64,000 nt of DNA from Corallococcus sp. NCRR (GTDB lineage Bacteria > Myxococcota > Myxococcia > Myxococcales > Myxococcaceae). How positions within the stretch are numbered: position 1 is the first letter of the stretch; each line of letters begins with the position of its first letter. The notes under the pieces are model-generated. The model worked only from the letters and a program-made list of their open reading frames with translations, had not been told where the DNA came from and ran no database searches. The position numbers were made by a program, and so were the translations under genes. Where the stretch lies: positions 558,001 to 622,000 of the forward strand of contig NZ_CP114039.1 in assembly GCF_026965535.1 (NCBI RefSeq), written 5' to 3'. Shown one piece after another: positions 43,407-47,724 of this stretch.

Positions 43407-43758
43407 CCTGGCAGTAGAACGGCATGCTGTCGCCCCGGGCGAGGAAGCCTTCGACTTCCTTGCTCGGCCAACGTTTCACGGGGACCGCGACCGCCTGGGT
43501 CGCGGTACCGCCCTCAACCGGCGGTGTCACCTTCGCTTCCGGCACGGAAGGAGGTGAGCACGACGTATGGGATTGGAAAGACTTTCACGGAAGACTCCGT
43601 GCTGAGTATGGCCGCCTCATCTTCGACGCGGACCGCTGACGCTGGATGTCAGACCGCATCTGCAGAAGGTCATCCCGACGATGACCGAGAAAATCATCTT
43701 TCCTGAAGAACCAGCATTTCAGGATCAGATCAGAACACCTGGGCGTCTTCGTCAGTCC
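43407..43758. other. Gene-poor stretch
   Basis: Short frames on both strands exist, but none has a good ribosome binding site, a domain or a length above about 70 residues. The region may hold decayed sequence ahead of the damaged ABC transporter genes. It must contain the promoter of the ABC unit. Confidence 0.4.
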
Positions 43759-44650
43759 ATGGGGCCCGCGCAAGGAACCGCCCTGCTCTCCGCGGAGCGG
43801 CTCTCCTTCGCCTTTCCCCAGGGGACGCCCGTGCTCCGCGATGTCTCCCTCCGCTTGAAGGGGGAACATCCGTGGGGCTGCTCGGCGCCAACGGCGCGGG
43901 CAAGACGACGCTGCTCGGCGCGCTCACCGGCACCGTGCGGGGAACGACGGGCGGCTCGGTGCGGCTCGACGTGGGGGGCTGCACGCCCGCCGCGCCATCG
44001 GGTTCGCGACGCAAGCCATCGCGCTCTATCCCGTGCTCACGGTGGAGGAGAACGTCGGGCACCTGACCCGGCTGTTGTTGGGACGCGGTGAAGCGAAGGC
44101 CGCCATCGAGCGGACCCTGGAGGAGTTCGCGCTGGGTTCCATTGCGCGCATGCGCGTGCATCACCTGTCGGGTGGGCAGCGGCGGCTCGTGCACCTGGCG
44201 GCCAGCTTCGTCCATGCGCCTCCCATCCGGTTGCTGGATGAGCCCACCGTCGCGCTCGACTTCGAGGCGCGCCAGTTGGTCGTGCGCCGGGTGCGCGCGT
44301 GGCGCGAGGAAGCCGCAGCGGTGCTCGTCACCGCGCACTACCCGGAGGACATCGAGGAACTCTCCACGGAGTTGGTGCTGCTGCGGGACGGGAAGACCCG
44401 CGACCTGGGAGAGCTGGGCACCGTGCTGTCGAACCAGACTCGCACGCTGTCGCTGCGTGGCGCGCGTCCCGACGCTTCGTGGGAGCTCACGCTCGCCACC
44501 AGCAGCCTGGAGGAGGTCCGCTCGAAGCTGGGCGAGGTCCCCTCCGATGTCCACCTGTCCGAGCTGCGCCTGTCCGGCAACCGGCTCCGCGACATCCTGC
44601 AGAGGGACCCGTCCCTGAGCGCCTTCGCCCGGGAGTCCGAGGCGCCATGA
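43759..44650 (+). pseudogene. ABC transporter ATPase gene with two frameshifts
   Basis: Three overlapping frames make one ABC-2 exporter ATPase. Frame one (from the ATG at 43759) gives LLSAERLSFAFPQGTPVLRD. After a five-G run at 43860-43864, which needs one more G, the next frame carries Walker A LLGANGAGKTTLLG. After a six-G run near 43973-43978, again one G short, the third frame continues with VLTVEENVGH, signature HLSGGQRR, Walker B IRLLDEP and TAHYPED as the switch His. Both breaks are missing G in G runs, so sequencing error and true decay are both possible. It precedes a truncated ABC-2 permease gene. It would export a peptide or lipid. Confidence 0.7.
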
Positions 44651-45258
44651 ATCAAGACATCGTTTCGAGTGCCCCCTCCGCTCCCAGCGGCGTGTCGGGT
44701 TTTGTCAACGTGGTGCGCTGCTACGCGCTGACGGAGTGGCGGGTGCTCGCTCGCGAGCGCACGGCCATGGTGTTCATCTTCATCCTGCCCGCGGTGCTCT
44801 CCGCCATCCTGGGCCCCGGTGTGTCGGGGCTCGACTCGGCTCCGGGCGCCATGGGCCGGGCCACCATCGGCTTCGCGGTGATGTTCAGCTACATAGTGGT
44901 GACCTACTCCGGTCACGCGTTCTACCGGGACTTCTGGTACCACACCCACGGCAGGCAGGCGCTGATCCGCCCCTCCCGGCTCGCGTTCGCCATGGGCAAG
45001 GTGCTGCCCGCGTGCGCGATGTCGTTCGTGCAACTGCTGCTCTTCACGGGCTTCGCGGCGGTGTTCCTCGGCCTGCCGCTGAACGGTGACGTCCTCCAGG
45101 TGGCCCTCACCGGCGCGGCGCTGGTGACGAGCGGCTCCGCAGCGCACCAGGGAGCCAGAGGCAGGGGTCCGCGCCATCCGGAACGCCAGCTGTTTCAGGG
45201 CTGCCATGACGTCCTTCGCTCGGGTGTCCGTCGAAGCAAGCATGCCCTCGCGGTCTGA
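44647..45258 (+). pseudogene. ABC-2 permease gene, 3' truncated
   Basis: The ATG at 44647 overlaps the ATPase stop. Residues of about 15-160 read as an ABC-2 permease: an N-terminal helix (VVRCYALTEWRVLARERTAM), a first span, a loop with SYIVVTYSGHAFYRDFWYHT and a Leu-rich span at FVQLLLFTGFAAVFLGL. After LTGAALVTSGSA (near 45135) the sequence turns into a charged, non-membrane tail, so at least the last two or three spans are lost. On the opposite strand the segment of about 45137-45246 reads as a plausible N-terminus of an unrelated gene, so a recombination or deletion junction is likely near 45130-45150. Confidence 0.6.
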
Positions 45259-45469: not shown

Positions 45470-45536
45470 CTTCAATACTGCCAATGAGAAGGTTTTTGGC
45501 GCGGGTTCCCCGCAAATCGAATCTGGGAGGCTATTC

Positions 45537-45635
45537 ATGAAGATGAAGAAGCTGACTGTTCAGGCCGAGATGGCGAAGACGGCGTTCCCTTTCTACGATT
45601 GGCTCTGCGATTCTGACGGACCGATCTGGGCGTAA
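45537..45635 (+). CDS. 32-residue peptide gene (candidate peptide signal or RiPP precursor)
   Basis: A GGGAGG ribosome binding site (45525-45530) lies 6 bases before the ATG. The product begins MKMKKLTVQAEMAKTA and ends FPFYDWLCDSDGPIWA. The front is a Lys-rich, amphipathic leader-like part; the end has two Trp, two Phe, one Tyr and one Cys. Ribosomally made, modified peptides often show a basic or helical leader and an aromatic/Cys core, but no modifying enzyme is seen nearby, so this is an inference. A strong terminator follows 20 bases after the stop and the degenerate NTPase/TPR gene starts 57 bases beyond it. A leader peptide of an attenuator is the alternative. The damaged ABC exporter lies upstream. 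Confidence 0.6.
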   Translation: MKMKKLTVQAEMAKTAFPFYDWLCDSDGPIWA

Positions 45636-45655
45636 TTCCCAGGCAGTGGAATCCG

Positions 45656-45693
45656 ACGCCGTGCGCTCTTCCTGAGCGCACGGCGTTGTATTT
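45656..45693 (+). terminator. Terminator after the peptide gene
   Basis: ACGCCGTGCGCTC (45656-45668) pairs perfectly with GAGCGCACGGCGT (45674-45686), a 13-bp stem with a 5-base loop, then TGTATTT. It lies between the peptide gene and the NTPase/TPR gene, as an attenuator or a true end. Confidence 0.75.
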
Positions 45694-45750: not shown

Positions 45751-47724
45751 ATGCCCTGGCACGACTCGCTTCCCTTGCTTGAGTCCTTGCAGACTCCGTC
45801 GCTCGTTGTGGTCGAGGCAGCCCCTGGAGACGGGCGTCAGGAGCTCCTGGCGCGCTGGCTGCGCGAGGGAGGTTCGCAGGCCGCACGCACGTGGCACGTC
45901 ACCGCGGATTTCAACGAGCAGGGGCCGTGGGCCGGCCTCCGCGGTGTGCTGGCGGACCTGCTGGGCGACATCGAGCAGAACGCCCCCGAGCTCTTGGAGC
46001 GGCACAGCTATGAGCTCTGCACGATCCTCCCCATGCTGCGGCACAAGATGGAGGTTCGGGGCTTCTCCCTCACGGACGTGGCCAGGGGAGATGAGAAGGT
46101 CCGGCACTATCCACCCGATCGCGCCTTTCGAGTCGTGCAGGGTGTCATCAATCTGCTCACGACGTGGCGAGCGCTCGCGCCCGCGGGCCGGTGGGTCTTC
46201 GTCTTCGATGCCTTCGAGCATGCGAGCACGCTGGGAAAGCTCTTTGTCTCAGAGCTCCTCCGTCGACGGGGGCAGTCGCTCCAGGTGACCGTGGTCCTGG
46301 CCGTGGCTCCTGGTACGGGCGAGGAGCAGATTCCGCCCCTCCAGATGCACACCGCCGAGGTTTCGCGCGTGCGGCTCGACCTGGCGCCCTCTTCCGAGGC
46401 CCCCATGAGTCCTGCCACCGCTGCGCGGCTGGCGGAAGAGCTCGAACAGCGGATGGCGAAGGACCCCGCCGAGCATGAAGCGCACCTCCCGGCGGTGCTC
46501 AAATACTGGAAGCAGTCCCAGCGAGATGACATGTGGCGCAAGAGCCTGGCGCTCGCGCTGAACCTCGCGATCCACCGGGGAACCTACGCGGACGCCATGC
46601 GGTACGGCGCCGGGGTGCTCGGGGAGCTGGACCTGCTCGCGAAGGAGGCCCCCAAGCTCTACCGCTCGGCCCTCTTCAGCCTCATGTATGGGTATATCGC
46701 CGCGGGCGAGCCAGCCCGGGCTTTGCAGATCGTGATGCGGCTGGACCCGGGAGTGGAGTCTCCGGAGACCTGTATCCGGCTGGACTACAACCTGGCGATG
46801 TTGCATTCGCGCTTTCTTCCCCAGCCCGACTACGACCGGGCGGAGCGCTACCTCCAGGACGCGCTGAAGGAGATCGAGCGCTCGTCGTTGCCCGAAGGCG
46901 AGAAGCACTTCGCCCATGTGTTCAATCGCAATGGGCTGGCCTACGTGCGAATGCGGCAGCGCAGGCCCCAGGAAGCCATTGAGTTGTGCAAGCAGGGGTT
47001 TGAACGGCTCAGCGAGCACCTCCACCCGGAGCGGCACAAGCTGCACCGCTCCGTGCTGCTCTACAACATCGCGCAGGTCTACGCGGGGCTGGACATGGTC
47101 GAGCAGGCGATCTCGCAGATCACGCTCGCCATGGAGATGGATCCCAACTACTCGGAGTACTACAACGAGCGGGGCTCCCTGTTCCTCAAGTCAGGCCGGC
47201 CAGACAAGGCGCTCGCGGATTTCCGAAAGGCCATTGACTGCAGTCCTCCCTACGCGGAGGTCTGGATCAACCTGGCGCAGTGCTATCGCGCGATGAACCG
47301 CCCGCAGCAAGCGGTGCAGGCCTTCTCCGAGGCGTTGGACCTGGCCCCCAACAACCTGCTCGCCTTGCGTGGCCGCGCCGATTGCCATGACGACCTGGGC
47401 CTCTCCGAGCAGGCCATCGCGGATTACAGCGCGGCGCTTGCGCTCTCGCCGGCCCAGCCCGGGCTCCTGGCGAATCGCGCCATCTTGCGTTACGCGTCCG
47501 GCCAGATCGCGGAGGCAGCCGCCGACCTCGACGCGGCCATCCGCCACGCGCCGCAGATGGCGGATCTCTACCGCAACCGGGCCATCGCGCTGTTCGACCT
47601 GGGGAGGGAAGAGGACGCGGTCCGCGACTGCCAGACGTATCTGCGGATGGCGCCGGAAGCGGAGGACCGTCAGGAGATCGAAGCACGTCTCCATGCCACG
47701 CAGCGCGCACGCGCCACGGGCTGA
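45751..47724 (+). CDS. Degenerate P-loop NTPase with C-terminal TPR repeats
   Basis: I start it at the ATG at 45751 (657 residues) because GGAG stands 5 bases upstream; a GTG at 45715 is the alternative. Residues 22-31 (EAAPGDGRQE) lie where a Walker A P-loop is expected but the catalytic Lys is missing. A Walker B-like FVFDAFEH is at 150-157. The N-terminal ~230 residues resemble a STAND/AAA domain, so it is probably a non-hydrolysing sensor. From about 320 to 640 there are some eight TPR-like helical pairs, for example YYNERGSLFLKSGRPDKALA and VWINLAQCYRAMNRPQQAVQ. Its stop overlaps the next gene by one base. It follows the peptide gene and may read or process the peptide. Confidence 0.78.
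   Translation: MPWHDSLPLLESLQTPSLVVVEAAPGDGRQELLARWLREGGSQAARTWHVTADFNEQGPWAGLRGVLADLLGDIEQNAPELLERHSYELCTILPMLRHKMEVRGFSLTDVARGDEKVRHYPPDRAFRVVQGVINLLTTWRALAPAGRWVFVFDAFEHASTLGKLFVSELLRRRGQSLQVTVVLAVAPGTGEEQIPPLQMHTAEVSRVRLDLAPSSEAPMSPATAARLAEELEQRMAKDPAEHEAHLPAVLKYWKQSQRDDMWRKSLALALNLAIHRGTYADAMRYGAGVLGELDLLAKEAPKLYRSALFSLMYGYIAAGEPARALQIVMRLDPGVESPETCIRLDYNLAMLHSRFLPQPDYDRAERYLQDALKEIERSSLPEGEKHFAHVFNRNGLAYVRMRQRRPQEAIELCKQGFERLSEHLHPERHKLHRSVLLYNIAQVYAGLDMVEQAISQITLAMEMDPNYSEYYNERGSLFLKSGRPDKALADFRKAIDCSPPYAEVWINLAQCYRAMNRPQQAVQAFSEALDLAPNNLLALRGRADCHDDLGLSEQAIADYSAALALSPAQPGLLANRAILRYASGQIAEAAADLDAAIRHAPQMADLYRNRAIALFDLGREEDAVRDCQTYLRMAPEAEDRQEIEARLHATQRARATG

Follow-up and report, generated by a model that had tools for sequence, protein, structure and literature searches.

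The 32-residue frame at positions 45537–45635 of the window, by which is meant the whole 64,000-nucleotide stretch of Corallococcus sp. NCRR analyzed here (contig NZ_CP114039.1, positions 558,001 to 622,000), probably belongs to a RiPP-like peptide system of which the strain has kept only the precursor and its TPR partner. In its full form the system would consist of one to five short precursors, a site-2 (M50) intramembrane protease fused to an RRE domain, and a pseudo-NTPase/TPR protein. In the sequences compared, the window peptide falls within the precursor family, the family is linked to the TPR and protease genes, its members are under purifying selection among relatives, and the leaders are weaker in most of the protease-less loci.

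The precursor-peptide gene (45537..45635, forward strand) encodes MKMKKLTVQAEMAKTAFPFYDWLCDSDGPIWA, 32 amino acids followed by TAA. A GGGAGG ribosome-binding site is located 6 nt upstream of the ATG (45525..45530, forward strand), and one of the words GGAG, AGGA, GAGG or GGGG was present at most 16 nt upstream of 52 of the 55 family peptide genes. The translation can be divided into a putative leader region MKMKKLTVQAEMAKTA (45537..45584, forward strand), the most divergent among the family members scored, and a putative core FPFYDWLCDSDGPIWA (45585..45632, forward strand) with the Tyr and Cys typical of the family. The core of the nearest relative, locus L023, is PSFYNWICDIFDPPPTQA; Tyr, Trp and Cys agree between the two cores (FYDWLCD and FYNWICD), and the pairwise estimate of dN/dS for this single pair was 0.33. 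A promoter scan gave no sites.

A profile of 36 non-myxobacterial peptides ranked the window frame first among 1363 six-frame segments (E = 0.0092, the next best segment 1.5), and a 46-member profile built without the window peptide gave it E = 2.4e-4 with the next at 2.0 among the same number of segments. The top rank with both profiles ruled out a chance frame, and on these scores the tiny gene is real and belongs, as a divergent representative, to the MKK-x-x-[IV]-R-x-x-ET-[LV]-KTT-A family. A first-pass annotation, made from the letters of the window, had described the small frame with its GGGAGG site, a basic leader-like front and an aromatic and Cys-containing tail, and had considered this more than a random short frame would show; the profile searches and the membership of the family bear it out. 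It had also named as grounds for refutation that relatives have no translated homologue in this place; run on the sequences, this test did not refute it.

BLAST with the 32-mer alone gave no convincing relative (three matches with E 0.43–0.94 among 58 relatives) and no match in plasmids, and only the partner gene led to the peptide family. The TPR gene was present in 12 of the 195 genomes of the phylum (E 1e-40), and upstream of it short frames of one design, such as MNSTSTQPAMKKFTIREMETVKTTAAYYDIWCILTGAGAN and MSMKKIIKVETVKSSPSFYNWICDIFDPPPTQA, were found in 11 of the 12. A profile built from those 11 peptides recovered them with E < 5e-10, and each of these matches adjoined the TPR gene. Altogether 45 of the 195 genomes had a match at E 0.5 or better, including the 11 strong ones; the other 34 (best 0.013) were judged noise by their scores. 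With the non-myxobacterial profile, the peptide upstream of the TPR gene was the top match in 10 of the 11 other myxobacterial loci, the exception being L026, which has no peptide. Among 23 TPR-bearing genomes, chosen for that gene, 22 matched the peptide profile at E 0.01 with 35 matches in all. Thirty of these matches belonged to loci of the set, and 29 of the 30 were inside the TPR locus by exact sequence, with L131 (E 0.006) outside; the remaining five fell within the same coordinate ranges. A search of 250 genomes of the Lysobacter order added a single match (E 2e-4), which lies within a frame of 213 codons and was taken to be noise.

Among 50 non-redundant TPR loci (38 + 12) the peptide was found in 47 and an M50 protease gene between the peptide and the TPR gene in 41, all of which also had the peptide, as counted with a profile trained on most of these same loci. 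Scanning contigs with the TPR alignment had given 50 loci, of which six (L060, L061, L065, L069, L074 and L083) were dropped as duplicates of genomes already included and L104–L109, which match the TPR part only, were set aside; the 38 that were left were counted together with 12 others. The NTPase/TPR neighbor pointed out in the first-pass annotation is thus a conserved partner of the peptide. The peptide was missing from loci L026, L086 and L098, the two latter being TPR homologues of one Gemmatimonadota MAG which also lack the protease and possibly represent a different use of the TPR protein. The same peptide design was present in myxobacteria, cyanobacteria, acidobacteria, Chloroflexota, alpha-, beta- and gammaproteobacteria, and others.

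The precursors share a basic leader ending in K-T-T and a core of 6–30 residues rich in Ala, Cys, Pro, Tyr and Trp. Cys was present in 45 of the 48 cores and Tyr likewise in 45 of 48, with L029, L030 and L071 as visible exceptions. A ribosomal precursor with a conserved leader and a variable core, as expected of RiPPs, is seen at the level of the family, the leader of the window peptide being divergent. Over 12 other related pairs, some of which share members, the summed pS was 0.44 and the summed pN 0.10, which shows purifying selection on the peptide across the family. One pair (L079/L080) had a dN/dS of 1.17 on few changes, and two pairs were saturated. Nine of the 50 loci (L063, L064, L066, L067, L072, L085, L093, L097 and L102) contained two to five precursor genes. 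The highest number, five, was found in Nostoc calcicola (L064), and within Nostoc the cores, such as AYVCWICSSCW, are near-constant.

No description of the peptide family or the three-gene locus was found among the literature matches listed, in which subscription papers are largely missing, and no curated model for the peptide was found in Pfam, searched with the window peptide alone, or in NCBIfam, searched with 47 peptides. The family of short precursors is thus apparently undescribed, in line with the earlier remark that no described family with this core is known. The six-cysteine SCIFF model matched two of the 47 peptides (best E 9.9e-4), and these matches were judged spurious.

The partner gene (45751..47724, forward strand) is intact and encodes 657 amino acids from the ATG at 45751, which was our choice of start. 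It was annotated by domain search, alignment and structure model as the fusion of a TPR superhelix to a pseudo-NTPase, which is AAA_16-like but lacks the Walker A lysine. The N-terminus is degenerate (AAA_16-like with E 7e-4, below the curated cut-off) and is followed by TPRs, for which a superhelix was predicted (mean pLDDT 90.6). In the stretch that aligns with residues 16–66 of the window protein, none of the 50 homologue rows showed the Walker A motif GxxxxGK[ST], and the protein is therefore probably not an NTPase. An ExxxGxxR motif was invariant across 12 aligned partner homologues. A padloc match was limited to residues 498–543, and a viral scan gave one weak match, to the TPR part.

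The statistics of the M50 protein are based on 27 aligned proteases of the 41. The HExxH motif was invariant in these and Peptidase_M50 matched all 27 (best 2.8e-7). The best-matching named model was the daptide protease model NF041824, with 14 of the 27 matched by E-value rather than by the curated cut-off (best 9.2e-12), and the YydH/LiaK model matched five (best 7.6e-4). In the predicted structure of the L009 protease, residues 8–89 superposed on lasso RRE–leader complexes (6jx3 with Z 10.5, 5v1v with Z 10.4) and residues 109–347 on the site-2 protease of M. jannaschii, 3b4r (Z 6.4 over 147 residues); both the RRE and the site-2 protease are accordingly predicted folds. Foldseek gave a best E of 0.17 with no match below 0.001, and non-RRE winged-helix chains reached Z 8.4 against the same N-terminal domain, so that the RRE-like fold seen in this one model is good but not proof of an RRE. 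The Pfam family PqqD matched two of the 27 proteases (best 0.017). From its predicted structure, the protein looks like a membrane protease built to recognize and cut the peptides of the family.

No M50/RRE homologue was detected at the locus in the window, nor genome-wide at E 1e-5. The TPR tree paired the window with the protease-less L023 (100/100) inside a clade that also holds protease-bearing relatives. Protease absence corresponded to five gains or losses on this tree, at least four by the starred branches, and repeated loss of the protease is the simplest reading of these sequences. Within one genus, the genome with locus L026 (G022) lacks the peptide and protease genes in comparison to that with L024 (G104); as it has kept an intact TPR gene and has the upstream gene in common with G104, this looks like a recent deletion.

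Judged from their sequences, the leaders were for the most part more strongly conserved in loci with the protease. With an ungapped matrix trained on non-myxobacterial peptides, the 11 held-out myxobacterial leaders scored 34.7–45.5 with the protease (n = 5) and 1.8–24.4 without it (n = 6), an ordering of which 1 in 462 is as extreme; this matrix penalizes the window and L023, whose leaders align shorter. A gapped leader model gave 21.0–34.6 with and 4.9–23.2 without the protease. Here the separation was incomplete because of the overlap of the protease-less L030, which outranked two protease-bearing leaders (3 of 462 orderings, 1 of 35 after near-copies were collapsed). The whole-peptide profile gave 42.0–54.6 bits with the protease and 11.8–27.0 without, a difference helped by short cores (L029 and L030). 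Leader decay was clear in two of the three protease-less clades (window/L023 and L010/L027) and partial in the third, and such decay in the absence of the protease is to be expected if recognition by the RRE is what the leader is for.

In the proposed mechanism, the RRE domain would bind the leader and present the peptide to the membrane protease, which would cut near the junction of KTT and the core. The core could then be released into or across the membrane or pass through an exporter, and the TPR protein may bind the peptide in the cytosol as a chaperone, an escort or a receptor. The Corallococcus lineage has no such protease, for which loss is the simplest explanation, and the precursor and the TPR partner would have been kept. 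In the strain of the window, the peptide would be processed by another protease or act unprocessed through the TPR protein; the lack of the protease together with the most divergent leader of the 11 also means that the window copy may be decaying or reused. The system would add an apparently undescribed ribosomal peptide family across several phyla; since it is not marked by a modifying enzyme, enzyme-anchored genome mining might overlook it. The RRE-protease is missing from scattered loci, most of them with weaker leaders, and this would amount to a natural experiment on selection by the RRE. Full three-gene loci are present in records of Lysobacter, Duganella, Pseudoalteromonas, Sphingomonas and Nostoc, and the system is therefore directly testable.

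The nearest known architecture is the RRE–site-2-protease fusion of the daptides, which is absent from the window genome and present in its relatives according to the structure model and profile. Daptides have short precursors (MpaA), often several per locus, near such a fusion, in which the RRE is N-terminal to the site-2 protease, and a leader with ELExMEAP (PMC10036551); the family shares with them the short, often multiple precursors and a protease matching the NCBIfam model daptide_HExxH (14/27), but its leader is MKKxxIRxxETxKTTA, and ELExMEAP was found in none of the 47 peptides. Neither did any of the 47 precursors end in Thr, in contrast to the invariant C-terminal Thr of daptides, and filing the family among daptides was rejected. 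A recurring set of oxidative decarboxylase, aminotransferase and methyltransferase was not seen either, and the partner here is the TPR pseudo-NTPase: aminotransferase class I/II matched 2 of 143 neighbors, and decarboxylase and methyltransferase were outside the 25 commonest families.

Epipeptides use a radical SAM epimerase, whereas no radical SAM family matched at least three of the 143 neighbors here. The likeness to them lies in the M50 intramembrane protease, EpeP/YydH/LiaK, which matures the short peptide EpeX/YydF (PMC10885120), and in the YydH/LiaK matches mentioned above. With lasso peptides the similarity is in the modeled RRE of the protease, whose fold resembles that of TbiB1 and of the lasso B1 protein of 6jx3. 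The protease is, however, a membrane M50 protein, and neither a B2 protease nor an asparagine-synthetase-like cyclase (C) was among the families matching at least three of the 143 neighbors, and filing as a lasso peptide was rejected. In TMcins the site-2-clan protease TmcP removes the RiPP leader at the membrane (PMC13252029), and a protease of this clan is thus found in both; TmcA differs by its transmembrane helix and a leader of 45 residues, TmcP belongs to DUF3267, and the hosts are Gram-positive.

Signaling by a peptide pheromone with the TPR protein as its receptor is a possible but somewhat unlikely alternative, in which the core would be exported and re-imported, or act within the cell, and signal through the pseudo-NTPase as in RRNPP or Rgg/SHP systems; the first-pass annotation had likewise proposed a sensed peptide, which is possible. 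Rgg is a TPR-type protein. A parallel is provided by the Eep/PptAB/Rgg scheme, in which a short hydrophobic peptide is trimmed by Eep, a metalloprotease of the membrane, and the likeness extends to the short peptide, the membrane metalloprotease and the TPR-type protein (PMC13361665). The peptide and the TPR gene also form the most persistent pair, kept in six protease-less loci, and Rap (4i1a, Z 21.3) and NprR–NprX (4gpk, Z 18.9) are among the many TPR proteins on which the TPR model could be superposed. These fold matches are nevertheless generic, the match to LGN being higher (Z 25.6), and the domain search gave no match to an HTH or other output domain in the TPR protein. Unlike in RRNPP and Rgg/SHP systems, an RRE-like domain is situated on the protease and the loci are spread over several phyla. 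Where RRNPP regulators have an N-terminal HTH or a Spo0F/ComA-binding domain, the N-terminus here is degenerate and AAA_16-like, and classification as an RRNPP regulator was rejected. Nor does any regulator recur nearby, because HTH_18 and HTH_AraC each matched only 2 of the 143 neighbors. A still bolder reading, which we regard as unlikely, is a cross-phylum class of RRE-guided site-2 protease, Tyr- and Cys-rich mini-peptide and pseudo-NTPase/TPR receptor, in which the RRE would be employed for signaling and myxobacteria would repeatedly have discarded the protease while keeping the peptide–receptor pair. If true, RRE recognition would serve signaling instead of antibiotic tailoring.

The gene surroundings were surveyed in 33 loci with at most five proteins each, altogether 143 neighbors from our own gene caller, omitting proteins of less than 120 or more than 900 amino acids and genes starting or ending inside the operon span. 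No modifying-enzyme family matched at least three of these neighbors (Pfam at 1e-5). Clustering of the genes near the system gave the TPR gene in 55 and the M50 gene in 34 of 56 loci, six of them duplicates, and all other families in at most six. Not every RiPP class has an RRE. Of the earlier proposal of a RiPP precursor without adjacent modifying enzymes, the RiPP-like character fits best; the absence of such enzymes is not supported as a trait peculiar to this strain, as no modifying family recurs in the neighborhoods surveyed, and what the strain lacks is instead the RRE-protease. In the proteobacterial branch, protein cluster 5 adjoins the system in L089, L092, L093, L095, L097 and L099; these are probably DUF4440/SnoaL-like proteins and candidates for an accessory or modifying enzyme.

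The survey also bears on a peptide toxin or bacteriocin with the TPR partner as a self-immunity or chaperone protein, which we find unlikely on balance and hardly to be favored. The short aromatic, Cys-containing cores that are diverse between species would suit such a function, as would the patchy spread of the TPR gene in the phylum. ABC exporters adjoin three of the 33 loci and were seen beside L010 and L027 and in L085, and the NHLP bacteriocin-exporter model matched three of the 143 neighbors (best 3.7e-200). Most of the surveyed loci are, however, without an adjacent exporter of that type, the TPR fold shows no sign of immunity, and the near-identical tandem precursors of Nostoc do not discriminate. 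MacB/FtsX-type permeases matched 5 of the 143 neighbors. In L085, an uncultured Anaerolineae, the ABC exporter, with a C39-like N-terminus as seen by eye, is at about -4027 from the TPR match and upstream of two precursor copies.

Upstream of the window peptide, positions 43750–45170 hold the remnant of an ABC-2 type exporter, with an ABC ATPase broken up among three frames and a truncated ABC-2 permease that continues into unrelated sequence. The damage noted in the first-pass annotation was thus confirmed, but the exporter looks unrelated to the peptide system, and a partnership with it was rejected, since the neighboring exporters elsewhere are of the ABC_membrane/ABC_tran type and found in 3 of the 33 surveyed loci.

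That the window copy is a dying remnant, the precursor drifting without the RRE-protease and having no functional product, is likewise doubtful. The window leader scored 1.8 with the ungapped matrix and 4.9 bits with the gapped model, the lowest of the 11 myxobacterial leaders in both, and the whole peptide had the lowest score of the 11 myxobacterial peptides with the non-myxobacterial profile; the genome has no protease at E 1e-5, and the neighboring ABC locus is already broken. The frame, the ribosome site and the partner gene are nevertheless intact, and the match of Tyr, Trp and Cys with the L023 core and the dN/dS of that one pair also argue against decay.

Between the peptide and the partner gene there is a stem-loop at 45654..45688 (forward strand; folding and scan), with a perfect inner stem of 13 bp, a loop of 5 nt and 15 pairs in total. 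The 75 nt following the peptide stop fold with -39.2 kcal/mol (z -5.0 against 200 shuffles). The earlier description of a perfect 13-bp terminator about 20 bases past the stop was right about the stem and its position; the label of terminator is not supported, because there is no T-tract after the GC stem and the terminator scan gave no sites. The element could be a partial terminator or stabilize the mRNA. Rfam had no meaningful match (best E 0.62). When 55 exactly matched peptide genes were surveyed with 60 mononucleotide shuffles each, stem-loops with z ≥ 2.5 followed 19 of them, the window included. A pure attenuator, i.e. a leader ORF that is translated to regulate the following gene by way of the hairpin, as also suggested in the first-pass annotation, could draw on this strong hairpin and on the 19 stem-loops in the family but is very improbable, as across phyla the peptide is conserved in sequence and the stems are not, the hairpin has neither a T-tract nor an Rfam match, the protease gene lies between the peptide and the TPR gene in 41 of the 50 loci, and 9 of the 50 have two to five peptide genes.

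Some single loci deviated from the general pattern. L096, titled Bacillus sp. 2B10, grouped with Sphingomonas in the TPR tree (97/81) and is possibly a mixed assembly. The protease gene of L100 and the TPR gene of L088 were each in two separate frames, representing either broken genes or sequencing errors. In L103, from Actinoplanes, the protease is present and a divergent precursor, MEKSQTKRTGMKKVTIRKTGPVRLTASACSHYPGQV, is located at about -1235 from the TPR match.
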